A DNA stretch of 64,000 bases from Trueperaceae bacterium (GCA_020431825.1 JAGQHN010000003.1:13197-77196), one strand, 5' to 3'; positions 1 to 64,000 are shown, counted from the stretch's first letter. Program-made: numbers and translations. Notes: generated by a model from the letters alone, not told the origin.

Positions 1-3000
1 GTTCTGGGCTGATAAGCCAGGTAAAAACTGAGCCATCTTTCGGCTTCATCGATACTCATATCTTTTCGTTCTGCGTAATCTTCTATTTGGTCGCGCTGAA
101 GTTTGCCTACAGCAAAATACTTCGCTTCCGGATGGGCAAAATAAAGCCCGCTCACACTAGCGGCTGGGGTCATGGCAAAAGATTCTGTGAGCTTTGTACC
201 AATAGTTTTTTCTACCTCGAGTAATTTGAACAAGGTGCGTTTTTCAGTGTGATCAGGTTGCGCCGGATAACCGGGTGCCGGACGAATTCCTCGGTATTTT
301 TCTCTAATTAGGTCATCATTCTTGAGCTGTTCATCTTTCGCATAGCCCCACCAACCCTTGCGCACTAACTCATGTAAGTGCTCAGCAAAGGCTTCGGCCA
401 ACCTGTCAGCAACAGCTTTGGTCAAAATGGCGTTGTAATCATCATGATCTTGTTCAAAATGCCTGGCCAAAGTTTCTGCCCCATGAATACTTACTGCAAA
501 TGCCCCCAGGTAATCTTGGATGCCGCTTTCTTTGGGTGCAATGAAATCAGCCAGCGCCATGTTGTATTGCCCTTCACGTTTGGCGTGTTGCTGGCGCAGC
601 GTATGAAAAGTAAACAGTGTTTTACTGTCTTGGCTATAAACTTCAATGTCATCATCCACCGCATTGGCTGGATAAATTCCAAAAACCGCTTTGGCTACCA
701 GTAATTTTTCAGCTGTCATTTTCTCTAGTAAATCCTGGGCGTCGTCAAAAAGTTTTTTGGCCTCCTGCCCAATGGTTGGGTCTTCAAAAATTTGCGGGTA
801 GCGCCCCTGCATTTCCCACGCAATAAAAAAGGGTGTCCAGTCAATATATGGCACGATGCGCTCTAAAGGATAATCCTCAAAGGTCTTGGTGATATTAAGG
901 TGGGGTTTTTGAATCTCGGCTTTTGACCACTCAAAAACAGGTTTATTGTTTCTTGCCCGCTGTAATGAAATTAAATGACGTTCATTATCACGATTGGCAA
1001 ATTGTTCGCGCAATTGTTGATACTGGGCCCCAGTTTCTTCTTTTAAGGTTGCCTCATCAGAAATGACCCGACCTGCAATTCCAACACTGCGGCTGGCATC
1101 CAGGACATGAATAGTCAGCCCGCTATACTGCGGGGCAATTTTGACCGCGGTATGTAAACGGCTGGTGGTTGCTCCACCTATGAGCAAAGGTGTTTTAAAT
1201 CCCTGTCGCTCCATTTCTCGAGCCACATGCACCATTTCATCCAGGCTTGGTGTAATCAACCCAGAAAGCCCAATGATGTCAGCACTTTCTTTTTTTGCCG
1301 TTTCGAGAATCTTTTCAGCAGACACCATTACTCCCAGATCAATAATCTGATAATTGTTGCAAGCCAGCACCACACCCACAATGTTTTTACCTATGTCGTG
1401 AACATCGCCTTTTACGGTGGCCATTACTACCTTAGCTGTATGGTTACTTTGAACAGAATTGGTGAGCTTTTCAGCCTCGAGATAGGGTTGCAAATAGGCC
1501 ACAGCTTTTTTCATGACCCGCGCACTTTTGACCACCTGTGGCAAAAACATTTTTCCTGAGCCAAATAAATCGCCTACCACATTCATGCCGTCCATCAGTG
1601 GGCCCTCAATGACAGCTAAGGGGCTACCTATTTTAACCCTGGCTTCTTCCACATCTTCTTCAATAAATTCGGTCACGCCTTTAACTAGAGCGTTCTTGAG
1701 TCTTTCTTCTACCCTGTCTTCACGCCAGACTTCATCTTTGACTTCAGATTTGCCTTTTCTCTTTACCGTTTCGGCGAATGCTACCAGTTTTTCAGTAGCT
1801 TCAGCATAGCGGTTAAAAAGTACATCTTCAACAAGCTCGAGCAAGTCTTTAGGAATTTCCTCATAGACCTCGAGCATACTTGGATTGACAATGCCCATAT
1901 CCATGCCAGCCTGGCGCGCATGATACAAAAAGGCCGCGTGCATGGCTTCACGCACGGTGTCGTTGCCACGAAAAGAAAAACTTAAATTACTTACCCCACC
2001 ACTGACCAGTGCGCCTGGTAAATGTTCTTTTATCCAGGTGCTTGCCTTGATGTAATCGAGTGCGTAAGTGTTATGCGCTTCAAGACCTGTAGCCACCGGG
2101 AAAATGTTAGGGTCAAAAATGATATCCTGAGGTTTAAAGCCAATGTCTTTGACCAAAATTTTATAGGCCCGTTCGCAGATAGAAATGCGGCGTTCATAGC
2201 TATCGGCCTGACCCTGCTCATCAAAGGCCATGACCACAACCCCAGCTCCATAACGTTTTACTAGCCTGGCCTGGTGCTTGAAGGCTTCTTCACCTTCTTT
2301 TAGGGAAATTGAATTAACCACACTCTTGCCCTGGGTTCGTTTTAGACCCGCTTCCATCACCGCAAATTTGCTGCTGTCAATCATGATGGGCAGTTTGGCA
2401 ATATCCGGCTCGCTGGCTACCAGATTTAGGAATTTAATCATGGAAGCTTCGGCGTCCAGCATGGCTTCATCCATGTTGATGTCGATCATCTGTGCGCCGC
2501 CCTCGACCTGATCTTTGGCAATATCAAGGGCTTCTTCAAATTGCTGATCCTTGATCAGACGCAGAAATTTGCGCGAACCCGTCACATTGGTTCGCTCACC
2601 TACGTTGACAAAGTTAGTGTCTTCGCGGATGACCAGGGGCTCGAGCCCGGAAAACCGTGGGTAACCTTTTACCACTGGGATTTGCCGGGGTTTGTATTTT
2701 TTGGCAACATCGGCAAAAACTTTGATGTGCGCTGGCGTGGTCCCGCAACAGCCCCCAATAATATTCAGCCAACCCTGAGACAGCCACTCTTCCATAAGTG
2801 CGATCATGCTCTTTGGGGTTTCATCATAAGCACCAAAAGCGTTGGGTAAACCGGCATTGGGGTAGGCATGGGTAAACATAGGGGCAAGCCCCGAGAGTTC
2901 CTCAACATAGCTGCGTAACTCTTTGGGGCCAAGTGCACAGTTAAGTCCAATGGATAAGAGTGTTGCGTGAGAAACGGAGATCAGGAAAGCCTCGAGAGTC

Positions 3001-3716
3001 TGTCCGCTAAGGGTGCGCCCACTAGCATCGGTAATTGTCCCTGAAACAATTAAGGGTACACGGTAGCCCAGCTCATCAAATACTTGCTCGGCGGCAAACA
3101 ATGCGCCCTTGCAATTAAGGGTGTCAAAGACGGTTTCAATTAAAAGTAAATCCACTCCGCCTTTAAGTAGGCCTTGAATCTGCTCGGTATAAGTAGCCAC
3201 CAGTTCATCAAAATCAATGGCTCTAAAAGCTGGGTCTGCCACATCTGGAGACATGCTAGCCATGCGATTAAGTGGCCCTAATGAGCCAGCTACAAAGCGT
3301 GGTTTGTCGGGGGTAGAAAAAGCCCCGGCTGCCCGTTTGGCAATCTGGGCGGCAGCGACATTCATCTCAAAAACGTAGTCCTCTAAACCGTATTCTGCCA
3401 TTGAGACTCGAGTCGCATTGAAGGTATTTGTCGAAACAATGTCTGCGCCTGCGGCTAAAAATTCTCGGTGGATTTCTTCAATAATGTGAGGTTGAGTTAA
3501 ACACAAAAGGTCATTGGCCCCTTTAAGGTGTTTGACGACTTTAGAAAATCGTTTATCCGGCAAAGCGTTGAGCTGTCGCTCAGAACTCAGCTTGCCTAAA
3601 CTTCTAAATGTTTCACCTCTAAATTCCTCTTCTGATAAACCATGACCCTGGATCATGGTTCCCATAGCGCCATCCAGGACTAAAATACGTTCTTTAAGTA
3701 AATCTTGAATTGTCAC
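1..3716 (-). CDS. metH: Cobalamin-dependent methionine synthase (3' end cut by window edge)
   Basis: Transfers the methyl group of 5-methyltetrahydrofolate to homocysteine through a cobalamin cofactor in the cytosol. The frame opens with GTG at 3714-3716 after an AAAGGA ribosome site and stays open to base 1, about 1238 codons. The E. coli enzyme has 1227 residues, and the visible C-terminus ([14 protein letters not shown], then [12 protein letters not shown]) already matches the family end, so only a few residues are lost. The homocysteine domain carries GGCCGTTP with zinc cysteines near residues 323-324. The cobalamin motif DVHDIGKN puts the axial histidine near 773. A pterin-binding domain lies between these two, and the activation domain closes the protein. 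No frameshift is seen. It stands alone, with a 270-nt leader that may be structured. Confidence 0.97.
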
Positions 3717-3731
3717 GATTTGGCTTCCTTT

Positions 3732-3790
3732 ATGCCCTGAGTACGTGGGTCTATCGTCATCGTGACGGAATCAGGGGATAGCCACCTGGA
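3732..3790 (-). promoter_or_regulatory. Possible structured 5' leader of metH (pseudoknot-capable)
   Basis: On the minus strand, within 75 nt upstream of the metH GTG, three complementary pairs interleave. GTGGCTAT can pair with ATAG-AC-CCAC. CCCTGA pairs with TCAGGG. Between them lies a compact hairpin, CGTCA-CGA-TGACG. The order a-b-c-c'-a'-b' is an H-type pseudoknot with an inner hairpin. I cannot match it to a known SAM, SAH or cobalamin riboswitch consensus. The pairing is seen in the sequence; the regulatory role is inferred. Confidence 0.35.
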
Positions 3791-3986
3791 TGAAAGCGGC
3801 GAGTTTTGCTAGTTTACAACAAATAGTCAGCGAAATAAAATCTGAAGAAAGTCGAGCTTGGCGGCTGGGTTAAAGTTTTCTTACCAGAATAAAGCGTTAA
3901 GCCTGCTGAAGCTTATAGGCCCGTAGTGGACCAAAAAGGTCATCATCGCTTGCCTGATGTCCCCTGTAGATGTCAGCTACTACAAG

Positions 3987-5363: not shown

Positions 5364-5370
5364 AAATCTG

Positions 5371-5376
5371 ATGGTA
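5371..5376 (-). promoter_or_regulatory. -10 box of the DUF1537 gene, leaderless type
   Basis: TACCAT on the minus strand, 7 nt before the ATG. It fits the TANNNT-N5-7-start pattern repeated through this window. No convincing -35 is seen. Confidence 0.4.
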
Positions 5377-5447
5377 TCTCAATTTGGGTCTTTAGATGGT
5401 CTGATGGCCACTAATAAGCTAAAGAGCTAGGCCAGAGGAATTCAGAC

Positions 5448-5479
5448 CAAAGAAAAAAGCAGGTTGTGACACCTGCTTT
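5448..5479 (-). terminator. Rho-independent terminator after the DUF2203 gene
   Basis: AAAGCAGG and CCTGCTTT form an 8-bp stem around an 8-nt loop. On the minus strand the stem runs into a T-rich tail (TTTTTTCTTTGG). It lies 17 nt past the stop of the DUF2203 gene. Confidence 0.8.
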
Positions 5480-5495
5480 GATTGATGAATGGGAT

Positions 5496-5897
5496 TTAAA
5501 GCTGAGGAATACTCGAGCTTGTGGTAGGTTCGACATTCAGGGGTAAATGCGTACCTTCGTTTAAGCGGTGATAGTGAGTGATGCTATCCTGGCCTTTTTC
5601 CCAGGTAAGATAGACCACTTCGGCACCCACCTGACTGGGTATTTCTACCAGTCCAGCATTCACATCTTTAACAAACACCCCCAGGTTATCAAGTTGAACC
5701 TTAATGTCTTGAACGTCTCGTACCAAAAAGTGCAGTTCTTGCGCCTTGTTTCTTGCCTCTATACTGAGAGACGAAGCATCCGCAATTTCTTGTCGTAGAC
5801 GAAGGATATCACTTAAGTCCTCTTGCATAGTTCCCATCAGGGCATCAACCTGGGGAATCATATTATTTGCCTCTTCTATGGAAAACAATTTAAACAT
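5496..5897 (-). CDS. DUF2203 family protein
   Basis: A 133-residue cytosolic protein of unknown function. It begins MFKLFSIEEANNMIPQV, the family's opening, where a predicted long helical region runs through residues 8-60. The C-terminal half has VRDVQDIKVQLDNLGVFVKD and WEKGQDSITHYHRL, both conserved in DUF2203 proteins as I know them. These are common in Deinococcota, Chloroflexota and some Bacillota. The ATG is preceded by AAAGGACGAGGG, a good ribosome site. It is a single-gene unit with its own terminator and lies divergent from the methyltransferase gene. Confidence 0.85.
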   Translation of the reverse strand: MFKLFSIEEANNMIPQVDALMGTMQEDLSDILRLRQEIADASSLSIEARNKAQELHFLVRDVQDIKVQLDNLGVFVKDVNAGLVEIPSQVGAEVVYLTWEKGQDSITHYHRLNEGTHLPLNVEPTTSSSIPQL

Positions 5898-6089
5898 CAG
5901 CCCTCGTCCTTTCTTTTACCAAATTTAGCAAACGCTCTCTTACAAAAAAGTCAATCATGCTACGGTTCATATATAAAATCTTAGCGTAATAGACTAAAGA
6001 TTGTTTGTGAATTGTGAATTTAGTCTTAACCATTTGCTATGCTCGAGCTGTCAAGACCCCTGAAAATTCACTGTAGCTTTTTTACTATT

Positions 6090-6095
6090 TAAACT
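6090..6095 (+). promoter_or_regulatory. -10 box of the RsmC-like gene, leaderless type
   Basis: TAAACT followed by 6 nt and then the GTG at 6102. There is no ribosome-binding site between them. Confidence 0.55.
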
Positions 6096-6101
6096 GTAAC
6101 T

Positions 6102-10248: not shown

Positions 10249-10897
10249 GCAAACACCAGAGGCTCCAGATAAACTTGAACTGTAAAAAAGGGAATTAAAG
10301 TCTGCGGAGGTGCAGCTTTACCAGCGCTGATGATGCCACTTAAAACTTCTTGGAGTTCTGTACCGTGGTTTATTCATCGTGATAAGAGTTTAAGAAATCT
10401 GGCAGAAAAAGGCAAGAAGGACTGGGTAAATCAGCTTATCCTAATAAGAGAAGCGCATAAATCGTCAAGGGTTGTTGGACTGTGGTAAGGCCTAAATAAC
10501 TCACGATTGAGGTATAAAAACTCAGTTCTTATACCAGAGTGCGGTTTTGATGTCTTTTGTGGATAAAAACCGCTTGTGAGAGCGTAGCCTTAGACGATTC
10601 CAACTATGACGTCATTTAAGCCTATGACGTCATTTAAGCTTTTTGGTACTAATGACCTCGAGTGCTAGTGCATCATTGCTAAAGTTGAAGGAAACGCTAA
10701 AAATCAGGCCTTTTGTTTTTAAGAATAAAAACAGTCCAGGCAAGGGCTTTTTTGACGCAAAGTTGCCCACTTTTCAAGACAGTTGAGAAACAATGTCCCA
10801 GAAGTCAGACCAAATAAGGCAGCTATTCTCTGCTTTCCGAGCGTAATGATTAGAAAAGATAGCAGGTATAAAGGGACTTAGTACCTGAACAGTCTTA
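10249..10897. other. Gene-free region (650 nt) with several inverted and direct repeats
   Basis: No open frame with a plausible start was found. Visible structure: an inverted repeat GGTATAA/TTATACC (10511-10535), a second one GCGGTTTT/AAAACCGC (10541-10573), two tandem 18-mers holding a palindrome (10604-10639), and one CTCGAG at 10657-10662. This is the upstream region of the eamA-trpBA operon and the downstream region of sufE. I found no T-box consensus or tRNA. Confidence 0.6.
10604..10639. repeat. Two exact 18-bp direct repeats, each with a 10-bp palindrome
   Basis: CTATGACGTCATTTAAGC occurs twice back to back (10604-10621 and 10622-10639). Each copy contains the perfect palindrome ATGACGTCAT. 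Two dyads spaced 18 bp apart look like a tandem operator. The cognate regulator is unknown. It lies some 360 nt upstream of the EamA gene. Confidence 0.75.
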
Positions 10898-20532: not shown

Positions 20533-20744
20533 CTTGGCTCGAGGTTATAAATGGTAGTCATGCAAACGGTAATAACTGCATCTAGACCGTCTGATCAATG
20601 TGATAAAGCTTAGCTAATCAAAGAAAATCTTAATAGGCGAAGCTAAACCTTTTCATAGAATCCTTTGCGTTATTGAAGTGGGGCAACGTGACTCGAGCCA
20701 GAGCGTCCAGTAAGCTATAGCCAAAGCATTTTCTGGAGGTAACA

Positions 20745-21824: not shown

Positions 21825-21892
21825 GGAGGTGATTTAGGCTCGAGCAGTAGTTTGTCTTGGTTGGCAAGATGGTTGCTGGTACAAATCAGGCA

Positions 21893-28306: not shown

Positions 28307-31300
28307 GTGCAATTACGATCACTAACCCTTCATGGGTTTAAAAGTTTCGGCGACCGTGTAGTTATTGAGTTTGATCACGGAGTAACAGGTGTTATTGGTC
28401 CAAACGGTTCGGGCAAGTCAAATATCATTGATGGCCTTAAGTGGGTTACAGGTGGGGGTAGAGCTAGCCAGTACCGGGCAGGGGAAAAGACTGATCTCAT
28501 ATTTCATGGTGCGGATGGCAAGAGGAGCGTAAGCTACGCCGAAGTTGAACTCGAGTTAGTACGGGGCAAAGAACGAATTACTGTCAGTCGCAGTCTGATG
28601 CGTGATGGCAGTGGAGCGCTCAAGTTGAATGGCAAAAACTGTCGCCTCAGCGACATAGAAGATGCTCTGGCAGGAACGGGTCTGGCTCGAGGGGCGCTTG
28701 CCATTGTTGGTCAGGGCGAAGTAGGACAGGTGCTCACCGCAGATCCTGAAAAACTTCTCAATTATGTGGCTGAAGCTGCTGATGTTGCCCGGCTCAGCGG
28801 TCGTAGAGAGCAAAGTCAGGCGCGTCTTCAGGATGCAGCCACTAATCTGCAAAGGCTCGAGGACATTATGCTTGAACTCGAGCAATTTATAGAACAGTTA
28901 AAAGAAGAAGCGGAGCTTGCCGAAAAATACACAGCGCTTAGTCGCGAAGTTCTGCATTTGCGTTACACCTTAAGCTGTCACCGGGAGGAATCACTTGAAA
29001 AAGAAGTGACTAATTTGAGATTGCAGGATGCGCAGCTAGGTGACAAGCTCAGTCATAGCAGGCTGGAGCGCCGCCAAACAGAGGAGAGCTGGCAGGACAG
29101 TCGCCGCAAAGCCAGTGAGCTGGAAAAGAGATACCGGGAAGCGCTCACTCGAGCCGAGGCCCAAAAAGCCGATTACCGTATTGCTCAGGAGCGACTTGAG
29201 GCCGTCAAGCAGCAAGAGAGTGCAAGTGAGCGGGAAAGAGAAGCGCTCGAGTCTGAAACAGCCTTTATTGCTTCCATGCAGATGCCTGAGCAGCCTGCCG
29301 ATGACAGCGAAGCTTTGAGTATGCAGCTGCACCAGGCTGAGGGTTATCTCAAAGCCATAGAAAAACAAGTTGGTGAACTTAGCGGACAAAGGCAAAAGCT
29401 CGAGGCAGAACTAGCTAGCTTAAGAAAGAGCAAAGATCAGGAAACTCAGAAGGCGATTGCCTATGAGACCAGCAAACAAAGACTCGAGGCTCAGATCGAA
29501 GAACTGCAAGCCCGTCTTGCCCAGGTTGGTGATACGCAGACGCCCCAGGTTCTTTCTATGAGTCAAGAGCTAAGCAGGCTCGAGCAAACCTTAAATCTTG
29601 AGACCACAGCCTTTGAGGAACTTAAAGAAGAACTTGCTCTGGCCTTGCAGGATGGGGCACGTCTTGATGCAGAAGCAAACTCGCTACATAAGGCGGCGGA
29701 ACAAAGCAGAGCTGCCTTTGAAGCCCGACGTGGTTACGCTACGGGCTCCAAAATTGCGCTCAATTCTGCAATTGAAGGCATTCATGGGTCAGTAGCAGAT
29801 ATCCTTCGTATAGATACCGATTACCGACAGGCGATTGCCGCGGCGCTGGGCAGACGAGCTGAATACATCATTACCGAAAATGCAAGAGTGGCTGAGCGAG
29901 TTATTGACCATGTAAAGTCAGCTGGTGGTTGGGTAACAACCCTTCCCCTTGATCTGGTTAAGGGAAGACAACCTTTTTTGGATAAAGCAATCGCCCAGTT
30001 TCCTGGGGTACTTGGTCTGGCAACAGAGTTTATTGAGCTGGATGACGACTATCTAGAGCTTATTTATCAGCTTCTAGGTGGTACGGTTTTGGTAGAGACG
30101 ATGAGTGACGCAGTAAAGCTGGCTCGAGTCCATAAGCAGCGGCCCAGACTGGTGAGTCTGGATGGGGGCATCATGGAGAATTATGGTGCCATGTCGGGGG
30201 GGCAGAGCAAAACCAATGTTTCTGTGCTTGGCGCAGCCAAAGACGTTGAAGATACCGAAAGCGAAGCTCTACTGGCAAAACAACGGGCCAATGCCCAGCA
30301 AGCTCGAGTCACGGAACTGCAAGAGCGTAGCAAGGCCAAGCTAGCCCTCATCCATGAGCTAAAACCTCAGGTTAACAAAGCAAAACTTGCGCTCACCCAG
30401 GTTGAGCAGGAGACTCGAGTTCAGTCCTCTCTGAAAGTAGAACTCGAGCGCCAGTTGAAGGGAGCAGAACAGGCCCTGTCTATGCTTGTGAAACCAGAAT
30501 CAACCCAGTCAGGTGAAAACCTGGCCCTCCTTGAGGCAAATCTTGGTGAACTGCTGAGTCAGGAACAAAAGCTCCAGGCAGGTCAGCGTGAGCAGCAAAA
30601 CCACCTCAGAGATCTTAAAGAAGCACTCAATCTTGCGCTGGAACGCAGGCAGACCTTCAGCAGCGCCCTTAAACAATATGAAGCAAATCAACTGCGTTTA
30701 GCAACGCTAAAGCAAAAGCTAGCTGCGGTACAGGCTGATAAAGAACTTATTCGCACGGCGCTAAATGAAGCTGAGCAGGCACTGCATAAGGCCGAAGAGA
30801 ATTTGCCAAAGGATCTAAAGGAACATCAGGAAAGCTACGCGACTGCCCTTGCCCAGGCGCAGGAACTCGAGCAAAAGCTAAGCGACTTTACCGAATTGCA
30901 GGCAGAACTTGCTCAAGCGCTCGAGTCGGTAAAAATCACGCTGGCACGCCGTGAGGCTGCTCTTGAAATTGCTACTGAGGAACGTAAGGCATTTCCCATG
31001 GGACTCGAGCGCTTAGAGCAAAGCCAGCGAATTTGCCGTGACCGCCTTTCAGTAGCCGAGCAGGAACTCGAGGCGATTGGTCCGGTAAATCACCGTGCAG
31101 CTCAGGACCTGCAACAGCAAAAAGAGCGGTATGAGGATGTGCAGGTGCAAAGCGTGCAGGCAACCTTAGCGGTTAGTGAACTTGAGGCCGTACTCGAGCG
31201 CATAGATCATGAGGTGACCAGCAAGTTAAGACACGCCGTTAATCAGCTCAAAATCCACTTCAGTCACTATGTAAAAGAATTATTTGGTGCCGATGCCAAG

Positions 31301-31693
31301 GCCAATGTTCTGGTCCATGAAGAAAATGATCGACCAAAAGGTCTCAGTATCATTCTGCAACCCCCAGGCAAGCAGACCCAGTCGCTTAATTTGTTGTCGG
31401 TAGGCGAAAGAACGATGGGCGCTATGGCGTTTCTTTTCTCGCTGCTTCAGGGGCAAGACAATAAGCGCTTGCCCATAGCCATCCTGGATGAAGTGGATGC
31501 GCCCCTTGATGAGGCAAATATCCGGCGTTTTTGCACCTTTGTGGATCATCTGGCAAAGCAGGGGACACAATTTGTACTTATCACGCACCAGAAAGCCACC
31601 TTTGAAATTGCCAATGTTCTATGGGGTATTACCTCAGAAAAAGGCGTGAGTCGGGTCTTTAGTATTAGCCGCAACGAATACGAGGCGGCTTAA
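28307..31693 (+). CDS. smc: Chromosome partition protein SMC
   Basis: An ATPase that folds and segregates the chromosome with ScpA and ScpB (not in this window). The 1128 residues follow the SMC plan: Walker A GPNGSGKSN at 31-39; a first coiled coil to about 470; a hinge with KIALNSAIEGIHGSVADIL and MSGGQSK-type glycines near 480-635; a second coiled coil; signature LSVGERTMGAMAF; and Walker B LPIAILDEVDAPLD. The signature has V where LSGGE is usual. It starts with GTG, fixed by MQLRSLTLHGFKSFGDR. Eighteen CTCGAG hexamers lie in this gene, mostly as Leu-Glu or Ala/Thr-Arg-Val codons. Confidence 0.97.
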   Translation: MQLRSLTLHGFKSFGDRVVIEFDHGVTGVIGPNGSGKSNIIDGLKWVTGGGRASQYRAGEKTDLIFHGADGKRSVSYAEVELELVRGKERITVSRSLMRDGSGALKLNGKNCRLSDIEDALAGTGLARGALAIVGQGEVGQVLTADPEKLLNYVAEAADVARLSGRREQSQARLQDAATNLQRLEDIMLELEQFIEQLKEEAELAEKYTALSREVLHLRYTLSCHREESLEKEVTNLRLQDAQLGDKLSHSRLERRQTEESWQDSRRKASELEKRYREALTRAEAQKADYRIAQERLEAVKQQESASEREREALESETAFIASMQMPEQPADDSEALSMQLHQAEGYLKAIEKQVGELSGQRQKLEAELASLRKSKDQETQKAIAYETSKQRLEAQIEELQARLAQVGDTQTPQVLSMSQELSRLEQTLNLETTAFEELKEELALALQDGARLDAEANSLHKAAEQSRAAFEARRGYATGSKIALNSAIEGIHGSVADILRIDTDYRQAIAAALGRRAEYIITENARVAERVIDHVKSAGGWVTTLPLDLVKGRQPFLDKAIAQFPGVLGLATEFIELDDDYLELIYQLLGGTVLVETMSDAVKLARVHKQRPRLVSLDGGIMENYGAMSGGQSKTNVSVLGAAKDVEDTESEALLAKQRANAQQARVTELQERSKAKLALIHELKPQVNKAKLALTQVEQETRVQSSLKVELERQLKGAEQALSMLVKPESTQSGENLALLEANLGELLSQEQKLQAGQREQQNHLRDLKEALNLALERRQTFSSALKQYEANQLRLATLKQKLAAVQADKELIRTALNEAEQALHKAEENLPKDLKEHQESYATALAQAQELEQKLSDFTELQAELAQALESVKITLARREAALEIATEERKAFPMGLERLEQSQRICRDRLSVAEQELEAIGPVNHRAAQDLQQQKERYEDVQVQSVQATLAVSELEAVLERIDHEVTSKLRHAVNQLKIHFSHYVKELFGADAKANVLVHEENDRPKGLSIILQPPGKQTQSLNLLSVGERTMGAMAFLFSLLQGQDNKRLPIAILDEVDAPLDEANIRRFCTFVDHLAKQGTQFVLITHQKATFEIANVLWGITSEKGVSRVFSISRNEYEAA

Positions 31694-38526: not shown

Positions 38527-38771
38527 CAGCCTCCTTAGTAACCAAATCGTACGCAACTGAGTTGTAGAACGTCAATGGCTATTTTCATAAAACAGCTAAA
38601 GTAGCAGGCTCGAGTTAAGAATCTATCGCAAAGCAATGCGGAGAAGGTATTCGAAAGGAAAAAAGATGGCTTAGTGAAATAAATATTTAATAGCTAGAAA
38701 AAGTCGTAAATTAAAGATAAGTAGCCTTATCCTGTATATTTTACATATAAGTTTTTCCTTATGGAATATGC

Positions 38772-40992: not shown

Positions 40993-41080
40993 GGCTAAAA
41001 TAGATTCTTGGAATAATTTTCGCCGTGATTCTCTAACGAATCATTTCTTGTCTTTAACAACAACTAGGAGGACACCGCCC

Positions 41081-41809
41081 TTGGCAGGACATAATAAATG
41101 GTCACAAATCAAGCGCAAAAAGGCCGCAAACGATGCGCAGCGTGGCAAAATAATAAGCAAGCATATTCGCGCGATTCAGAGTGCGATTCGTGAAGGCAGT
41201 AGCGATGACCCTTCAACGAATCTTTCGCTTAAAAACGCTCTGGCAGCGGCTAAGTCTGACAGCGTTCCAAGTGAAACCATTGACCGTGCAATAGAGCGTG
41301 CCACAGGGGGGGGTGAGGGGGCTAGCTACGACGCCGTGACCTATGAAGGTTATGGCCCAGCAGGGGTTGCTTTTGTTGTCGAGGCCTTAACCGATAATCG
41401 CAACCGTACCGTCAGTGAAGTGCGTCATGTTTTTACGAAACATGGTGGCAATATGTCGGGCGGTACTGCCTGGCAATTTGAATCCGCAGGTATCATCGTC
41501 TTACCCACAACAAGCGAAAAAGCTCAGGAAATGGCTATTGAGCTTGGCGCACAGGATCTTGAGATAGAAGACGAAAGCCTTACCATTTACACTGACCCCG
41601 CAGAACTGTATGCCGTTGTCGATGGTTTACAGGCTGCCGGCTTTGAGGCCGAGATGAGCCAGTTGACGAAACTTGCCCAGACTCCTAGCCTTCTTTCAGC
41701 AGAAGATGCCGCTAAAGTCCTGAGGTTTACGGAAGCGCTGGAAGATCTTGATGATGTCCAGAATGTTTACTCGACGGCTGATTTAAGCAAGCTTGAAGCG
41801 GTAGGTTAA
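41081..41809 (+). CDS. yebC: YebC/PmpR family translation factor or regulator
   Basis: A 242-residue protein that begins at TTG (41081) to give the invariant AGHNKWSQIKRKKAANDAQRGK. AGGAGG lies 9 nt upstream, and the longer frame from 41048 is rejected. Other landmarks: YEGYGPAGVAFVVEALTDNRNRTVSEVRHVFTKHGGNM and WQFE. YebC-type proteins bind DNA as regulators, and some help ribosomes translate proline stretches; the residue set does not tell which applies. No ruvC is adjacent. It contains no CTCGAG, unlike nearly all its neighbours. Two nt separate it from naxE. Confidence 0.95.
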   Translation: MAGHNKWSQIKRKKAANDAQRGKIISKHIRAIQSAIREGSSDDPSTNLSLKNALAAAKSDSVPSETIDRAIERATGGGEGASYDAVTYEGYGPAGVAFVVEALTDNRNRTVSEVRHVFTKHGGNMSGGTAWQFESAGIIVLPTTSEKAQEMAIELGAQDLEIEDESLTIYTDPAELYAVVDGLQAAGFEAEMSQLTKLAQTPSLLSAEDAAKVLRFTEALEDLDDVQNVYSTADLSKLEAVG

Positions 41810-51426: not shown

Positions 51427-51508
51427 TTTGCCCATTCGAGCAAAGTGTAACGGTATATATCGCGTTTTCTTGCAAAACCCTCTAGCTTCATCGCACACTA
51501 GGAGTATT

Positions 51509-54500
51509 ATGCGCAAACTTTCCCTCATACTGATCTTCGCCTTTTTAAGCCTCTTACTGGTAAGTGCACAGGATGAAAACATCTGGCTATATGGGGGTGG
51601 TGTCTACAAGCCTGGCGAGGGTATTCAACTCGAGTACCGGGTTCCACCACTGGCACGCGCTGAGCTTTCACTTTACCGAATTGGCAATCCTGAAAAACTA
51701 CTTGCCCTTGGCGGCCCCAGAGATTTTCAAGAAAGCGATGAACTCGAGCGCAGCCTCGTTAATAGCTACAGCGTCAGGAATGCTCAAGATGAGTACTGGG
51801 GCACTATTAGTTTGGGCACACTAAGCGCCGGGCTTTACTTTGCACAGCTCGAGCGCGGTAGTAGCAAAAGCGCAACCTTAATATTGGTTTCAGACCTCAG
51901 CATGGTCGTCAAAAGCGATGAAGATAGTGTTTTGACCTATACCGCCAGTGATGATGGACAACCCAGAAAGGCTAAAGTTTATCTCTTAAATACTGCCAAG
52001 AAAACGCTCTACGCCGAAGGACTTGCCAATGACGATGGCCTGACTGAATTTAATAAAGACACTACCGATGAACTCATAGCTGCTGCAAAATACGGCAATG
52101 CCTGGGCCTTTAGCAGCTCTTACTGGAGTAGCTGGGGCTTGCAAAAATCGAGCATTTACTTACAGACAGATCGGCCCCTTTACCGCCCCGGTCATCTTGT
52201 CTACGTTAAAGGTACGGCACGCTCGACTACAAAATTGAGACCTCTGGTTGGTCAAAGCGTAGAGCTGGTTATAACCGACCCGGACGGCACGGAACTCCTT
52301 AAAGATCGTTTAGAAACCGATGCTTTTGGTAGTTTTACCAGCGAACTGCAGCTACCGGCCAGCAGCCCTCTGGGCTACTACAGCATCAGTGCCAGCCTGG
52401 ACGGCGAAACAAGCTACAGTAGTTTTGAGGTGCAGGAATTCCAAAAACCAGAGTACCGGGTAACGGTGAGCAGTGAAAAAGATACGGCTATTCAGCAGGA
52501 TAGTGCCCACTTTACCGTCAGCGCCGAATATTTGTTTGGAGGAGCTGTTAAAGGTGCGCAGGTAAATTACGCCGTTATGCGAGAGCCGTACTACCGCTGG
52601 TATCCTTACTACTATGACATTGCGCCGTACTATGGCGGCGATGTCTTAGAAGAGGGTGAGGCCACTCTCGATGAAAATGGCAAGCTCGAGCTAGATATTC
52701 CGCTGCCGGGTTTTGAAACCGACTACCGCCTGACTGTACAGGCCAGAGTTACCGACGCTGCCCGACGAGAAATCAGCGCCAGCTCGAGCATTAAAGTGTT
52801 CCGCTCCAATATTGTCCTGAATATAAAAACCGAACGCTACGCCTACAAAGTCGGTGAGAACGGTCTGGTGACCATAGAAGCTGAAGACATTGACGGGAAT
52901 CCGGTCTCGGTGCCTTTTACGGTTGAAACGGAAAGGTATGTCTGGGAGAATGGCTCGAGCCGGACCTTAAAAGGCCAGGTTTACCGGGGTAGTACCTCAG
53001 CAGAAGGTCAGGCAACGCTTACTGTGCCCTTTGACAATCAGGGGTCATATAGCCTGACCGTACGCGCGGCAGACACCGAGGGCCGTGAAACCAGTGCAAC
53101 CGACTCCGCCTGGGTTTCAGGGAATTCCTACTGGTACTGGGCCTATGACGGCTTAAGTTTAAGAGCCGATAAACCCTCCTATAACGTTGGTGATACGGCT
53201 CGAGTCGTCATACAGTCACCAGTTGCCGATGCCTACGTCCTGATAACTTATGAAGGTCAGCGCCTTGGTAACTACGAATTGCTAAAACTAAACGGCTCGG
53301 TTCTGACATACGAATTTACCATCACCGAGGAAATGAGTCCCAACACCTATCTTGGTGTTTCCCTTATTGGCGATGGCAGTTCTTACTATGACACCCTTAA
53401 TCTAAACGTGCCACCTAGCAATAAATATCTCAATGTAGAAATAACATCAGATGCTGACACTTATAAGCCTGGCGAGACGGGGCAGTTTGATATCCGCGTG
53501 TCTGATGTAACTGGGCAAGGGCTAGAAACACAGTTAACGCTGGGGCTGGTCGATGAGGGTATCTATCTACTTAGAGAAGACGGCACTCCAAATATTAAGG
53601 ACTTTTTCTATGCTCAACGTAGCAATGTAGTAGGTACGGACTTAAGTGACTGGTTTTATTTTGGCAGTGTGGCACCTGTTGCCGATGCTGGCTATAACCT
53701 GACCACGGCTGCCCCAATGGCGGCGCGAGAAGCCATGGACGAAGCAGTTTTCTCCCAGGCGAAATCTAGCTTTGCACCGGCGGATGTACGCGAAGATTTC
53801 CGCGATACGATTCTCTGGTTACCAGCACTCGAGACCAATAGCCAGGGACTGGCTCAGGCTGAAGTAAGCTTCCCTGATAATCTCACCGAATGGCGTTTAA
53901 CAGCCAGAGCAATTTCATTAGAGGATCAGGTGGGTCAAAATACCTATGCTGTTAAAACCACTTTGCCCCTAATCGCACGCCTGGCCAAACCAAGGTTTTT
54001 GATTAACGGTGACTCTAGTGAGTTTCGAGTTATCGCTCAGAGCAATCTTGAGACGGATACCACAGCTCAGCTCGAGCTTACCGCTGAGGGTATAGACATT
54101 TCGGGGTCTGCCCAGACCCTTCCTCTGGCTGCTGGCGACAGTGTGCATCAGGATTTCACCGTTAATGCCAGTCACACGGGAGTGGCAAGTGTCACGGCAA
54201 CGGCATTAAGCAGCGAGGCGTCTGACGCTCTGAAATTGCCTTTGCCCGTACTGCCACACGGCATAAGGTCTGATATTGCCTGGGCTGCCAGCGGCACCAG
54301 TAGCTGGACGTTTAACCTGCCCGAGTCAACTGACTTAAATTCTGCGGCAGGTACGCTTTACCTGACACCTTCATTAGCGGCAGCCGTCTCCCCTGCCCTT
54401 TCCTACCTTGCTGGTTATCCTTATGGTTGTACAGAGCAAACCATGAGCCGCTTTTACCCAAGCGTCCTGGCTAAGAGCGCTGGTAACCTTGCCATGCTGC

Positions 54501-55885
54501 CTGAAGAGGTCGCGTCTAATCTTGATGATATGGTTGCCAAAGGGCTCGAGCGCATTTACAGCTTCCAGCATGATGATGGGGGCTGGGGGTTCTGGCAGTA
54601 CGACAGCAGTAATCCCTTTATAACAGCTTATGTAGTAAACGGCTTACTGGATGCCGAGGCACAGAGTTACAGAATTCGAGATTATGTTTTAGATAGTGCG
54701 CTCTCTTACCTCGAGTCGATTATTCATAGTGAATCTTTTGACGATTATCGCCTGGTAGAAGCAGATGCCAAAGCCTATGCTTATCTGGCGCTAGCAAGAG
54801 CAGGGCGAGGCGTTTCAGGCTTAACCCAAGTAGTTGATTCTGGTGATATGTCAGCGTATGGCTTTGCCCTTGCCAGCTTAGCCTTTTATCAGTATGGTGA
54901 GCTTGAGCTTGCCGAAAAGACGCTTGATGCCCTGCTAGGTAAGGCAAAAGAATCAAACAGTCTGGTCTACTGGGACTCAGAAGCCCCCAGATACTACTGG
55001 AATGACGACAGTCTGGAGACAACCGCTTATGCCCTCGAGGCACTGGTGAGTTTGCGCCCCGACGCCCCCATCATTCCAAAAGTGGTCAACTATCTGCTCC
55101 TCGAGCGCGATGGTAGCTACTGGCACTCCACTAAAGAAACGGCTGCCATTGTAAAAGCCGCGTTAAAACTGGCTGAGGTTACCGGCGAAGTGACGAGCGA
55201 GTCTGAGGTTAGCGTCCTGTTAAATGGTCAGCAAATCTATCAGGGGAGTATGTCCGGACAATCTGAGGATGGTGTGGCAATTGATTTAAGTCAGCTCAAG
55301 CTTGGCGACAATACGCTAGATGTCTCAGTATCTGGCGAAGGTACCCTCTACTTAAGCGCCAATACGCATTATGTGGCTGAACAGGCAAACTACAGCCCTG
55401 AAATGGAAAATTTCCGAATTAAGCGAACCTATGAAGTCTTAAGCTCGAGGCTGGACCGTGAAACCAATACCTATGTCTATGACCGCAAGCTCGAGCTTAG
55501 CAAGGTGCAAGAAGGCGACTATATTCTAGTAACGGTCGAAATAACACCCGAAGATAATTATCGATATGTCATGGTCAACGACCCACTTCCCGCAGGCTTT
55601 AGCGTAGTTGAGGATGACAGTGTTTTTCGCATTGCTGGCGTTGAGCCGCGCTACGGCTATGACTACTACGGCTGGAATTACTGGTATGACGGTCGTGAAG
55701 TCCATGATGAACGGGTTGATTTCTACTTTACCTATCTGGCTGACCCGGTTACCTTTACCTACATTCTGCGCGCCGAAACTCCTGGTAGCTATGCTGCCCT
55801 ACCGACCCAAGCCTGGCTCATGTATGAACCAGACATTAAGGGCATTGGTAATGATACAGTGCTGAATATTCAGACGAATCCCTAA
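51509..55885 (+). CDS. Bacterial alpha-2-macroglobulin with thioester
   Basis: A 1458-residue secreted protease-trap protein. It starts at the ATG after AGGAG (51500-51504) with signal peptide MRKLSLILIFAFLSLLLVSA and no lipobox, so it is probably released or periplasmic. MG-type beta domains fill residues 25-700 (LQTDRPLYRPGHLVYVKG at the MG2/3 region). An A2M domain (FRDTILWLPALETNSQGLAQAEVSFPDNLTEWRLTARA) precedes the thioester domain GYPYGCTEQTMSRF with C974 and Q977, and the helical repeats (GWGFWQYDSSNPFITAYVV). Unlike typical CLEQ-type E. coli proteins the motif is CTEQ. It lies between DUF1175 and a metallopeptidase-like gene. Fifteen CTCGAG hexamers. Confidence 0.95.
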   Translation: MRKLSLILIFAFLSLLLVSAQDENIWLYGGGVYKPGEGIQLEYRVPPLARAELSLYRIGNPEKLLALGGPRDFQESDELERSLVNSYSVRNAQDEYWGTISLGTLSAGLYFAQLERGSSKSATLILVSDLSMVVKSDEDSVLTYTASDDGQPRKAKVYLLNTAKKTLYAEGLANDDGLTEFNKDTTDELIAAAKYGNAWAFSSSYWSSWGLQKSSIYLQTDRPLYRPGHLVYVKGTARSTTKLRPLVGQSVELVITDPDGTELLKDRLETDAFGSFTSELQLPASSPLGYYSISASLDGETSYSSFEVQEFQKPEYRVTVSSEKDTAIQQDSAHFTVSAEYLFGGAVKGAQVNYAVMREPYYRWYPYYYDIAPYYGGDVLEEGEATLDENGKLELDIPLPGFETDYRLTVQARVTDAARREISASSSIKVFRSNIVLNIKTERYAYKVGENGLVTIEAEDIDGNPVSVPFTVETERYVWENGSSRTLKGQVYRGSTSAEGQATLTVPFDNQGSYSLTVRAADTEGRETSATDSAWVSGNSYWYWAYDGLSLRADKPSYNVGDTARVVIQSPVADAYVLITYEGQRLGNYELLKLNGSVLTYEFTITEEMSPNTYLGVSLIGDGSSYYDTLNLNVPPSNKYLNVEITSDADTYKPGETGQFDIRVSDVTGQGLETQLTLGLVDEGIYLLREDGTPNIKDFFYAQRSNVVGTDLSDWFYFGSVAPVADAGYNLTTAAPMAAREAMDEAVFSQAKSSFAPADVREDFRDTILWLPALETNSQGLAQAEVSFPDNLTEWRLTARAISLEDQVGQNTYAVKTTLPLIARLAKPRFLINGDSSEFRVIAQSNLETDTTAQLELTAEGIDISGSAQTLPLAAGDSVHQDFTVNASHTGVASVTATALSSEASDALKLPLPVLPHGIRSDIAWAASGTSSWTFNLPESTDLNSAAGTLYLTPSLAAAVSPALSYLAGYPYGCTEQTMSRFYPSVLAKSAGNLAMLPEEVASNLDDMVAKGLERIYSFQHDDGGWGFWQYDSSNPFITAYVVNGLLDAEAQSYRIRDYVLDSALSYLESIIHSESFDDYRLVEADAKAYAYLALARAGRGVSGLTQVVDSGDMSAYGFALASLAFYQYGELELAEKTLDALLGKAKESNSLVYWDSEAPRYYWNDDSLETTAYALEALVSLRPDAPIIPKVVNYLLLERDGSYWHSTKETAAIVKAALKLAEVTGEVTSESEVSVLLNGQQIYQGSMSGQSEDGVAIDLSQLKLGDNTLDVSVSGEGTLYLSANTHYVAEQANYSPEMENFRIKRTYEVLSSRLDRETNTYVYDRKLELSKVQEGDYILVTVEITPEDNYRYVMVNDPLPAGFSVVEDDSVFRIAGVEPRYGYDYYGWNYWYDGREVHDERVDFYFTYLADPVTFTYILRAETPGSYAALPTQAWLMYEPDIKGIGNDTVLNIQTNP

Positions 55886-55922: not shown

Positions 55923-55934
55923 AAACGTTCCTTT

Positions 55935-57214: not shown

Positions 57215-57228
57215 CAGGCAAAATGCAA

Positions 57229-57726: not shown

Positions 57727-57738
57727 ACAATCTCCCTT

Positions 57739-57770
57739 AAAAAATTACCCCATGCTCGAGCATGGGGTAA
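57739..57770 (-). terminator. Perfect 26-nt palindrome terminator with CTCGAG at its centre
   Basis: TTACCCCATG and CATGGGGTAA flank CTCGAG, which forms the loop. On the minus strand TTTTTT follows. It ends the small acidic-protein gene. Confidence 0.9.
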
Positions 57771-57796
57771 AGTATCGCACTAGCATTCTGTTCTAA

Positions 57797-57964: not shown

Positions 57965-58075
57965 TTTATTCCTCCGGATATCTTCCAATCTGATATCTAA
58001 AACATGACTTCTTAAAGCACTGACCTAGAGTTTGACATATCAAGTCTTGCCTCCTCGTCAGATGGTTAATACTGT

Positions 58076-58099
58076 AGCTTAAGCAAGCTTGCTTAAGCT
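58076..58099. repeat. Perfect 24-nt palindrome after thrS
   Basis: AGCTTAAGCAAG and its exact complement CTTGCTTAAGCT without spacer. It lies 17 nt past the thrS stop codon on the minus strand. No T-run follows on that strand; on the plus strand GTTTTTCC comes 9 nt later. Confidence 0.7.
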
Positions 58100-58116
58100 G
58101 GATGTGAAGTTTTTCC

Positions 58117-60111: not shown

Positions 60112-60145
60112 GTCAAACTCCTAAGGTCTAAACAAGTCTCTGGGG

Positions 60146-60206
60146 ATTATAGCTGTTAAGCCCAGTGGCTAAACGTTAGCCAGTTTGTGCCTGAACACGG
60201 CACAAA
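60146..60206 (-). promoter_or_regulatory. thrS promoter with two inverted repeats
   Basis: On the minus strand TATAAT (60146-60151) is preceded by TGGCTAA-ACG-TTAGCCA (60166-60182) and by TTTGTGCC/GGCACAAA around a 7-nt loop (60184-60206). The dyads sit where the -35 and upstream region should be, so an operator is likely. No T-box consensus was found. Confidence 0.5.
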
Positions 60207-60580
60207 TGCCAATAGATTGCATTGTTAAGGATAGTGGCGGCCTAGCCGCGCGTTCGCGTGGTAAAGATCAACTTTTTAAAGACTTGAAACCACAGCATGA
60301 GTTCAGTATAGACAAAACCCGGATGCGGTGACAAGTCGACTTTTCACTTAAAGTATAGATTATGCCAAGTTTTTCAAACTGGAGCGCGCTACTTATGCTA
60401 GACTAAATACCTAATGAGGCATCCATCTTTACAATCCAAGCGATGTTGCCAGTAAGTCTTGCTGTTTTTTATCCCCTTTAGCCCAAAATTCAACTCACAA
60501 GCTAAACGTCTGTTAGGCTAATGCCATTTGAAGAGCTAGTGCTTTAGTCAAATGGGCGAAAAGCAAAGCAAGGAGCAAGC
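60207..60580. other. Gene-free region (about 370 nt) upstream of cysS
   Basis: Holds an inverted repeat CCATTTGA/TCAAATGG (60522-60557) and TTAGCC/GGCTAA (about 60479-60522). No reading frame, tRNA or CTCGAG was found. Confidence 0.45.
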
Positions 60581-62002
60581 ATGGCACTGCAACTTTACAA
60601 CTCAAAAACACGGCAAAAAGAATTATTTAAACCTATTACGGAAGGACATGTTGGCATTTATAAATGTGGACCGACGGTTTACTCTGACCCCCATTTGGGA
60701 CATGCCCGTGGCCCCATTATCATGGACACTTTAAAACGCTGGCTCGAGCACTCTGGCTACAGCGTAAGACTGGTAGAGAATGTTACCGATGTCGGTCACC
60801 TGACCGATGATGGTGATGCAGGTGAAGATAAACTGCAAAAACGCGCGAAACTTGAAAAGCTCGAGCCTATGGAAATTGCCGAAAAATACTTTTGGGCATA
60901 CTTTGACGCTATGGCTGCTTTAGGAGTACAACGTCCAGATATCATTCCAAAAGCCTCCGGTCATATCCCTGAACAGATTGAAATGACCGAAGAGCTTATA
61001 AAGCTTGGTTACGCCTATGAGCGAGACGGCAGTGTGTACTTCGATGTCTCAGCCTGGGAAGATTATGGCGAACTCTCTGGTAGAAACCCCAACGACCTGG
61101 TCGAAGGAACCAGAGTCGAAGTGCGCAGCGATAAAGATGATCCCAGAGATTTTGCACTTTGGAAACGCGCCGAACCCGAACATATCATGCGCTGGAATAG
61201 TCCCTGGGGCGAAGGCTTTCCTGGCTGGCACATCGAGTGCTCCGTTATGAGCACCAAGTACCTCGGTGATGAGTTTGACATTCACGGTGGTGGCTTGGAC
61301 CTCATATTTCCTCATCATGAGTGTGAAATTGCGCAGGCTAGGGCGGCTGGCAAAGACTTTGCCCGCTACTGGCTCCACTGGAATATGATCACCCTCGGTG
61401 GCGAAAAAATGGCCAAATCAAAAAACCATTTTGTCACGCTCGAGGATCTGTTTAAACAATTTGATCCGCTCGTTATACGGTTCCATCTCTTACGCAGTCA
61501 TTATCGGAGTATTTCTGACTTTAGCGAGGAAAGCGTTCAGTCGTCGGCGCAGGGGCTAAAACGCTTGCTTGATACCTATCAGGAAGTTAAACGCCTCAGT
61601 TCTGGTGATGCTGCTGACAGCGACGCTTTTGCAGCGTTACGCCAGGCTTTTGGCGACGCCATGGATGACGATTTGAATACCCCGCAAGCTATCGCCGTGC
61701 TATTTGATGCAACCAGAGAGATCAACACGCGGCTTAGCCAGAAACCAGATGGGCCTTATCTCAATGCCGCTACAATGTTTTACGAGGATTACCTGGGCAA
61801 GATTTTTGGCGTTTTGGCAGCAAACCCGGAAACAGCTAAAGGTGACATGCTTGATGGCCTACTCGAGCTACTCATAAATCAGCGACAGGAAGCCCGCCTC
61901 AAGCGTGATTTTAAAACGTCAGATGCGATTAGGGATAGCTTGGCGGGACTTGGAATTACGCTGGAAGACACCACTGAAGGCAGCAGGTGGAAACTTAATT
62001 AA
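60581..62002 (+). CDS. cysS: Cysteine--tRNA ligase
   Basis: Charges tRNA-Cys. The 473-residue class Ia enzyme starts at an ATG with AAGGAG upstream. The HIGH motif is HLGH at 38-41 after the zinc cysteine C29 ([18 protein letters not shown]). [37 protein letters not shown] holds the other zinc ligands. The KMSKS motif is KMAKS in [10 protein letters not shown]. The stop codon overlaps the dprA start by one base (TAATG). Confidence 0.97.
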
Positions 62003-63099
62003 TGCAAGAAACGCTTGCCTTTTTAACACTAAAAGCTGCCAAGGGTTTGGGGCCACGAAAAACGAAGTTGCTGGTTCAAGCTTTTGGCAGTGCTAGTAAC
62101 GTTTTAGCTGCTGATACCGTTGCGCTGAGTCAGGTCGAGGGGGTGGGGCCAAACCTTATTGCGGCAATACAGGAAGCAAAATCAAGCAGTTTTCCGGAAA
62201 AGGAATGGGCTCGAGTTGAAAACCTTAAATTATCGCTACTCCATCTCTTAGACCCGGGCTATCCGGAAGCTTTGCGGGCCATCTATGATCCCCCTTCCCT
62301 ACTCTACGTCAAAGGTTCACTTCCAGCATATGAGGGCATGCAGCCCCGGAGCCTGGGTGTAGTTGGCACGCGGGATGCCAGCGACTTTGCGCTGGCCTTT
62401 ACCGAACACCTAAGCGAAGAACTTGCATCACGGCAGGTTGTTATCAATTCTGGTCTGGCTCTGGGCGTTGACACAGCGGCGCATAAAGGAGCACTAAAAA
62501 CAGGTGCTACCGTCGCCGTTTTGGGGTCAGGCGTAGATTTCATTTACCCTGCTCAAAACCGAACTTTAGCAGGTCAAATAGTGGAAAGGGGCGGTGCGAT
62601 TATCAGTGAATATGCCATTGGCTCGAGACCCACTGCCACCAACTTCCCCGGGCGGAACCGAATCATTAATGGTCTCTCGAGCGGTATTGTCGTAGTGGAA
62701 GCAGGTGAGAAGTCAGGTGCGCTCATCACTGCTGATTACGCCTTGCAAGAGGGTCGGCAGGTATGCGCTGTGCCAGGAAGACCTGGCGATGCCAGAGCCA
62801 GTGGCTGCCATAAATTACTCAAGCAGGGCGCCTTGCTGGTTGATAATGTCACAGATATTTTGGATGAATTTAACTGGCACGATCAGACAAACCTAACTGC
62901 ACAGAACCTTCCGGACTTAAACTCCTTTGAAAGCCGAGTTTTTGAGCATATTCAAAAGCAAGAACCAAGCCTGGACCAGCTCGTTGACAATCTGAATGAA
63001 CCGGTTTCCAGCTTGCTACCTGTTCTTACTATGCTCGAGCTAAAAGGTCTCATAAAAATGCAGGCTAACGGCAGGTATATGAGCCTTATGCACCGTTAA
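62002..63099 (+). CDS. dprA: DNA processing protein DprA
   Basis: Loads RecA onto incoming single-stranded DNA in natural transformation. The 365-residue protein begins with a helix-hairpin-helix region (residues 1-75), followed by the Rossmann-like DprA core: GVVGTRDASDF, VINSGLALGVDTAAHKGAL, AVLGSGVDFIYPAQN, FPGRNRIINGLSSGIVVVEAGEKSGALITADYALQEGR, and AVPG. A C-terminal winged helix (residues 305-365) is present. It is fused by 1-nt overlap to cysS. Competence is plausible for this organism. Confidence 0.95.
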   Translation: MQETLAFLTLKAAKGLGPRKTKLLVQAFGSASNVLAADTVALSQVEGVGPNLIAAIQEAKSSSFPEKEWARVENLKLSLLHLLDPGYPEALRAIYDPPSLLYVKGSLPAYEGMQPRSLGVVGTRDASDFALAFTEHLSEELASRQVVINSGLALGVDTAAHKGALKTGATVAVLGSGVDFIYPAQNRTLAGQIVERGGAIISEYAIGSRPTATNFPGRNRIINGLSSGIVVVEAGEKSGALITADYALQEGRQVCAVPGRPGDARASGCHKLLKQGALLVDNVTDILDEFNWHDQTNLTAQNLPDLNSFESRVFEHIQKQEPSLDQLVDNLNEPVSSLLPVLTMLELKGLIKMQANGRYMSLMHR

Positions 63100-63414
63100 A
63101 TTTACCCGCACAACGTTTAGCTCTGGCAGAAACAACGCAAAATGCTAGATATTACACAAACACGAAAAGGCTACTAAAGTCGCAAAATAAATGCAAAAAG
63201 TTCGAGCAGTGTGAGCAATTACTGCAATTCTTTCATAATTTTAAAGAATTTATGAAAAAGCCTTCAAGTATTGGGACTTCAAATGCTAGACACCGACAGT
63301 GGAGCATTGTAAACTGCATTAGCAATTTTAATCGGTTTGTTTCAGTCATTTGTCAAGAACGTCTTGATGGAGGCTGCTAGCTGATTAGAGGCATTGCAAT
63401 CGAAAGGAGAAGTC
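63100..63414. other. Gene-free region (315 nt) upstream of the sugar-binding protein gene
   Basis: AT-rich leader region with an inverted repeat TTTCATAA/TTATGAAA (63231-63257, 11-nt spacer), operator-like. No terminator was recognised for dprA. Confidence 0.5.
63231..63257. promoter_or_regulatory. Operator-like inverted repeat before the binding-protein gene
   Basis: TTTCATAA and TTATGAAA with an 11-nt spacer. Sugar uptake genes are commonly controlled by LacI or similar repressors; the regulator is unknown. Confidence 0.45.
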
Positions 63415-64000
63415 TTGAAAAAGATTCTTTTCACAGTTATGGCTTTTGCCACCTTGTTTGGTGCTGTACAAGCCCAAGGTATTACGGTCTGGACTCATTT
63501 TGGTGACGCTGAACTCGAGTGGTTGCAAAACGAAGCTGCCGCTTTTGAGGGCGCCTTTGGCGTACCTGTAAGCCTAGTCAAAGTCGAACTCGGCGAAATC
63601 AAACAAAAACTACTTTTAAGTGCCCCAGAAGGTGAAGCTGCCGATCTGATTGTGCCCATCCCCCATGACCAGATTGGTGAAATGGCTTCAGGTGGTGTGC
63701 TCGCTGATATGACCGGTTTTGCGACAGCGGACTATCTGGCTGATCTCAACAAACAAGCGCAACTTGCCTTTACTTATAACGGCAAACTGTTTGGTCTCCC
63801 CATGTATGTTGAGGGTCCTGCACTGATCGTTAATACAGACCTGGTTCCCGAAGCCCCTGCAACCTTTGAAGATATGATTGCAATTGCTCAAGGACTCACC
63901 AATGATGACACCTACGGCTTCCTTTATGACATCGGCAATTTCTATTTCTCGTATATCTGGATTAATTCTAATGGTGGCTATGTCTTTGGTCGCGATGCCA
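63415..64000 (+). CDS. Extracellular solute-binding protein, MalE-like (3' end beyond window)
   Basis: The first 195 codons of a substrate-binding protein of an ABC importer, most like maltose/maltodextrin-binding proteins. It starts with TTG after AAAGGAGA. The signal peptide is MKKILFTVMAFATLFGAVQA. The mature part opens with GITVWTHFGDAELEWLQNEAAAFE, followed by ADLIVPIPHDQIGEMASGGVLADM, GKLFGLPMYVEGPALIVNTDLV and WINSNGGYVF, all aligned to the MalE order. The permease genes would lie to the right of the window. Confidence 0.9.
   Translation, partial: MKKILFTVMAFATLFGAVQAQGITVWTHFGDAELEWLQNEAAAFEGAFGVPVSLVKVELGEIKQKLLLSAPEGEAADLIVPIPHDQIGEMASGGVLADMTGFATADYLADLNKQAQLAFTYNGKLFGLPMYVEGPALIVNTDLVPEAPATFEDMIAIAQGLTNDDTYGFLYDIGNFYFSYIWINSNGGYVFGRDA

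Follow-up and report, generated by a model that had tools for sequence, protein, structure and literature searches.

CTCGAG is a highly iterated, HIP-like palindrome of Trueperaceae, Meiothermus and related bacteria

In the bacterium analysed here and through most of its order, the palindrome CTCGAG is present in great excess, regardless of reading frame, and is conserved between species. We class it as a HIP-like element; its word and its phylum are both new for such elements, and its density exceeds that of HIP1. The window, that is, the whole stretch of DNA that was analysed, comprises 64,000 nucleotides from a Trueperaceae bacterium (GCA_020431825.1 JAGQHN010000003.1:13197-77196). The original prediction, made from this stretch, knew of no HIP1-like repeat of this word in Deinococcota, and no earlier description of one was found in the open-access literature. 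We consider the chances to be about even that CTCGAG is a HIP-type element kept dense by selection at the DNA level and acting as an adenine-methylated mark from solitary methylases. Somewhat more tentatively, the fuller picture would be that of an undescribed order-wide palindrome under selection strong enough to alter proteins (Leu-Glu up to 2.5-fold), read by a conserved factor and written by solitary adenine methylases that were repeatedly recruited, from two or more distant families.

An exact count gives 176 copies of CTCGAG in the window, with a mean spacing of 362 bp, against 14.2 expected from base composition and 11.7 and 14.3 expected from Markov models of orders 1 and 2, respectively. 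The original prediction had put the number at about 176 against roughly 16, one every 360 bp or so, and is closely reproduced. An order-4 model does return 141 copies, but the reasoning behind this figure is circular: most CTCGA and TCGAG 5-mers are supplied by the CTCGAG sites themselves. With the sites masked, the copies expected in 83 kb number 12 at order 1 and 8 at order 2, and 231 are observed. These tests drew on sampled contigs and on whole-genome counts. By its order-2 ratio of observed to expected, CTCGAG ranks first among all hexamers in the window, and in the uncultured families f5 and f2 it is over-represented 35-83 times; as in the HIP class, a single palindrome stands far above other oligomers. 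Nor is the abundance limited to the window: the whole genome (5.63 Mb) contains 12,737 copies against 802 of the reversed word GAGCTC, a ratio of about 16:1. The word thus differs from an avoided type II restriction site, as it is over- and not under-represented in the host genome, and from a Chi-type hotspot, which is non-palindromic and strand-oriented, as CTCGAG is its own reverse complement. The features of the window are the following.

1..64000, no strand: CTCGAG palindrome, 176 copies, about one per 362 bp, of a genome family of 12,737 copies (counts and codon-shuffle test)
1..3716 (C272:13055-16912), minus strand: metH (methionine synthase), the first gene of the window and not intergenic DNA (N-terminal sequence)
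6042..6047, no strand: intergenic CTCGAG
10657..10662, no strand: intergenic CTCGAG
20538..20543, no strand: intergenic CTCGAG
20692..20697, no strand: intergenic CTCGAG
21839..21844, no strand: intergenic CTCGAG
28307..31693, plus strand: smc gene, 18 CTCGAG sites (5.3/kb)
38609..38614, no strand: intergenic CTCGAG
41048..41809, plus strand: yebC/TACO1-family gene, 0 CTCGAG sites
51428..55885, plus strand: bacterial alpha-2-macroglobulin gene, 15 CTCGAG sites
57755..57760, no strand: intergenic CTCGAG

The counts in smc, alpha-2-macroglobulin and yebC had been given beforehand and hold, and all seven intergenic positions named then (7/7) read CTCGAG. The bias towards a purine before the word and a pyrimidine after it is also borne out, as the 176 sites are preceded by G in 92 cases, A in 51, C in 23 and T in 10, and followed by C in 70, T in 56, G in 36 and A in 14.

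A cause acting on DNA, similar to that of HIP1, had been proposed from the presence of the word in all frames and outside genes, and it is supported by reading frames, non-genic sites, interspecies conservation and distribution across the order. The window has 159 coding copies, against 22.3 expected (s.d. 4.3, maximum 36) from 200 synonymous shuffles in which both the protein and the codon usage were preserved. Divided by codon frame, 110, 21 and 28 copies are observed where the shuffles yield 17, 3 and 2.3. Outside open reading frames (ORFs), the density is 1.57/kb here and reaches 5.4-9.7/kb in the most extreme genomes, near or above their coding density. As in other HIPs, the word is found in all frames and in intergenic DNA, and this excess in all three frames and between genes indicates a cause that acts on DNA. 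Ordinary codon or amino-acid usage is refuted as an explanation and keeps only a negligible probability: two thirds of the coding sites are indeed in-frame Leu-Glu, and 110 of the 196 Leu-Glu pairs in window genes are spelled CTCGAG, but synonymous shuffles account for only 22 of the 159 coding copies, the enrichment extends to out-of-frame and non-coding sites, and the reversed word GAGCTC is not enriched.

The word has also left a trace in proteins. In the extreme genomes, which belong to the uncultured families f5 and f2, Leu-Glu dipeptides occur at 2.2-2.5 times expectation while Glu-Leu stays at about 1.0. As only the first of these is over-represented, CTCGAG has shifted protein composition. 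The corresponding values in the window's genome are 1.37 and 0.96, whereas in unenriched genomes, for which samples are small, the two ratios are closer together (1.06 vs 0.70 in Thermus).

Comparison between species points in the same direction. In 131 kb aligned between a pair of Meiothermus (89.9% identity), CTCGAG is kept at 87.7% of its sites, against 59.5% for words of the same composition and 51.8% for other palindromes, and its conservation ranks first among 1,988 hexamers. Between the window and its only congener in the genome set (72% identity), 54.1% of CTCGAG sites are kept, compared with 17.1% for same-composition words. When the comparison of the two Meiothermus is limited to conserved Leu-Glu pairs, which leaves silent changes only, the CTCGAG spelling is kept in 245 of 267 cases (92%) and other spellings in 120 of 197 (61%; p=1e-15). 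Out-of-frame copies are kept in 24 of 29 and 31 of 37 cases, and those outside ORFs in 19 of 21. Selection on the word itself, which is also characteristic of the HIP class, is thus well supported by conservation at synonymous, out-of-frame and intergenic sites.

Two further properties help to define what is being maintained. Firstly, CTCGAG is commoner than each of its one-base neighbours, at all six positions and for transitions as well as transversions, which fits recognition of the whole site and not a single type of mutation. Secondly, in the window's contig the sites are spaced more regularly than at random (coefficient of variation 0.85 vs 0.99, p<=0.004), with fewer close pairs, and the same regularity and rarity of close pairs are seen in f5 genomes. 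Evenness of spacing was also looked for in genome G056, which we take to be M. ruber, and there the sites are not evenly spaced. Even spacing with few close pairs fits a function that, in some genomes, acts over a local range and gains less and less from additional sites.

These properties bear on a neutral explanation, in which very-short-patch or methyl-directed mismatch repair turns near-sites into CTCGAG, as Elhai (2015, PMC4390886) proposed for HIP1. A repair bias of this kind would also protect existing sites, and it might explain why restriction-type loci of the window's genome (L284 in G000:C108, L086 in G000:C92 and L286 in G000:C24) contain only 0-1.0 CTCGAG/kb, compared with 2-3.5 elsewhere: such low density is as expected of recently acquired DNA, these loci were probably acquired, and slow amelioration would leave them poor in sites. 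Nevertheless, we regard this explanation as improbable. The comparison with neighbours speaks against it, since an excess over transitions and transversions at all six positions is unlike the product of a Vsr-type enzyme; Vsr-like repair is further argued against by the absence of a C5 methylase from the window's genome. In addition, protein composition is altered at Leu-Glu, and sites in the window's genome and in f5 are spaced more evenly than they would be if independent.

The distribution of the excess was surveyed in 111 genomes of the class. CTCGAG occurs at 10 to 90 times chance across the window's bacterium and its relatives, and the enriched genomes include those of most Trueperaceae, though not all to the same extent, of Meiothermus with two sister genera, of f5 and of most of f2. 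Part of Marinithermaceae is moderately enriched; Thermus and genomes G037, G003 and G024 show a weak excess or none. Comparison with related genomes, which had been suggested together with the original prediction, hence shows an excess through most of the order, with Thermus as an exception. The highest values are those of f5 (4.2-4.6 Mb) and of genus g24 of f2, with 5.9-7.7 CTCGAG/kb and only 2-25 copies of GAGCTC per genome; in sampled f5 and f2 contigs, CTCGAG stands at 24-89 times expectation. Enrichment increases with genome size (Spearman 0.72, not corrected for phylogeny).

No matching methylase had been seen in the window and none is visible, although a solitary candidate is encoded on another contig. 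In the wider search for a solitary CTCGAG methyltransferase, solitary orthologs of M.PaeR7I, specific for CTCGAG by homology, were found in relatives, and the window's genome has a candidate, OG-A, whose specificity for CTCGAG is putative. The first group, OG-B, is formed by a protein of M. ruber (G056:2437463-2439130) and those of three other Meiothermus, which are 61-69% identical to M.PaeR7I (target CTCGAG), with orthologs of 46-52% identity to M.PaeR7I in T. radiovictrix and genus g30. The PaeR7I nuclease that adjoins the reference methylase gene matches the Pfam XhoI family (1e-106), and this identity supports CTCGAG as the target of OG-B by homology. A search of the Meiothermus carriers of OG-B returned no XhoI-family nuclease, so that OG-B is solitary in them. 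In genome G013, presumably that of T. radiovictrix, the PaeR7I-type methylase adjoins an XhoI-family nuclease split by a frame change (L089:5830-8287); the locus is a decayed restriction system of which the methylase is left over.

The second group, OG-A, consists of solitary Eco57I-type methylases (PF02384, PF22837). In the window's genome, its gene lies at G000:C276:19015-20730, near a V-ATPase operon identified by eye. As the genome (assembly 94% complete) yielded no C5, beta-class or D12 methylase, OG-A is by elimination its best solitary candidate; besides it, there are type-I-like subunits and one N6 methylase of 663 aa. In other phyla, the DNA around OG-A homologs shows no clear excess of CTCGAG or CTGGAG, for which reason its specificity is only putative and the attempt to derive it from those relatives was dropped. 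In Meiothermus, OG-A occupies a conserved origin-proximal place a few kb from dnaA-dnaN-eno (L099:1-6343, L100:167-6232, L091:5655-12001, L291). In relatives of OG-A from Acidobacteria, Chloroflexi and Bradyrhizobium, the methylase is followed by a gene of 230-264 aa (L165:11623-12393, L170:11635-12327, L172, L194, L207), which matches nothing in Pfam and nothing of meaning in NCBIfam; a PDB comparison of one such gene gave no match either. These genes possibly form a nuclease family that has yet to be described.

Each of the 18 Meiothermus has one of the two enzymes and never both, 14 of them OG-A and 4 OG-B. That both are mutually exclusive and jointly universal suggests a requirement for methylation in this genus. 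Carriers of either enzyme have a higher ratio of CTCGAG to GAGCTC in Thermaceae (p=8e-8) and in Trueperaceae (p=0.009), neither value being corrected for phylogeny. By contrast, no association between presence and enrichment is observed at genus level (p=0.39), because f5, f2 and genus g29 lack both OG-A and OG-B, except for a divergent OG-B relative in G048 (f5). Among the surveyed classes, no methylase common to the f5 genomes or shared in f5/f2 was found, and the search in g29 found none. C5 methylases were rejected as general writers, since the window's genome has none and those of f5 and f2 are not orthologous throughout. A third methylase, of the beta class, adjoins XhoI-family nucleases in three Marinithermaceae (G050, G061 and G062; L306:377-2100, L307, L308) and is 61-66% identical to a methylase of most Thermus, a genus without an excess of CTCGAG; thus, the presence of a methylase alone is not sufficient. 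The Thermus ortholog adjoins a 225-aa gene without assigned function (L309:3874-4551).

The patchiness of the methylases leaves room for a site that works without methylation, where a conserved nucleoid, repair or segregation protein would bind CTCGAG and methylases would be late additions exploiting an abundant site. Enrichment is order-wide and peaks where no common methylase was found, and the even spacing in some genomes would also agree with a bound protein. This possibility is nonetheless rather unlikely, as no candidate protein was identified and as the exclusive and jointly universal distribution of OG-A and OG-B in Meiothermus suggests that methylation is required there. In the preferred reading, that of a methylated mark, the site would act in its N6-adenine-methylated form, CTCG-m6A-G, which solitary methylases would write, the putative writer being the M.PaeR7I-type OG-B in the M. 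ruber group and the Eco57I-type OG-A in the window's genome and most Meiothermus. Once methylated, the sites may identify the parental strand, or the cell's own DNA, to a process that spans the genome, possibly strand choice in mismatch repair or self-recognition. Support for a link to adenine methylation exists but is incomplete: methylation is a supported part of the account for certain lineages and a guess for the others.

Transformation offers another way to drive a word up, if a competence receptor, perhaps dependent on methylation, prefers CTCGAG. DNA-uptake sequences, such as those of Haemophilus and Neisseria or the methylated RAATTY of Campylobacter, are likewise short iterated words with selection or drive. 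Nevertheless, known uptake sequences occur about once per kb, well below the density of CTCGAG, and Thermus, a well-known transformer, has no excess of the word. An uptake signal is therefore given a low probability, in spite of the competence gene dprA in the window and of the precedent in Campylobacter jejuni, where RAATTY is a palindromic, methylated 6-bp uptake motif (PMC10046745).

CTCGAG is also the target of two known systems. The solitary methylase of Nocardia recognizes the same word, whose sites cluster near dnaA in that genus (Blow 2016, PMC4752239); here, clusters at the origin or dnaA region were looked for and none was seen, so that this model was rejected, and what stands out instead is the excess across the whole genome. 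The PaeR7I/XhoI restriction-modification systems have the same target word and a methylase that OG-B resembles, but the OG-B Meiothermus lack an XhoI-family nuclease and their sites are enriched, not avoided.

The closest likeness is to the HIPs. HIP1 was reportedly described in cyanobacteria by Robinson in 1995, and to our knowledge the question of its function has been without an answer since that year. The new element is not HIP1 proper: its word is different, it belongs to a different phylum, it has 6 bp instead of 8, and several of the genomes studied avoid CGATCG. It also reaches 6,000-7,700 copies per Mb, compared with the 1,000-2,000 quoted for the HIPs of cyanobacteria, has visibly changed dipeptide usage, and has gamma-class adenine methylases as candidate writers. 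On the other hand, HIP1 (GCGATCGC) and other cyanobacterial HIPs are, like CTCGAG, palindromic, hugely over-represented and both genic and intergenic, and they have been reported to be maintained by selection, linked to solitary methylases and low in some reduced genomes (PMC4390886). With a second, independent HIP-like system that has another word, is much denser, shows natural losses in Thermus and in small genomes and includes hosts that can be cultivated, such as Meiothermus ruber, HIP function becomes a testable question. It is also unusual in its own right that a DNA word measurably biases the composition of proteins, and in practical work with these organisms the sites may affect XhoI digestion and cloning.

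Other palindromes follow the opposite course in f5 and f2. In sampled contigs, the remaining 6-bp palindromes pooled stand at 0.33-0.48 of expectation, with 12 to 26 of them nearly absent; for instance, GAGCTC, TGGCCA, TTCGAA and GCGCGC are nearly eliminated at f5 and f2 loci (L059-L069, L146-L148 and others), often with 0-1 copies against 10-60 expected. This loss, alongside many methylase genes, is extreme restriction avoidance. Finally, in G008 (L049, 37% GC), G nearly always precedes CTCGAG and A or T is favoured at positions -3 and -4, giving a longer palindrome around GCTCGAGC.
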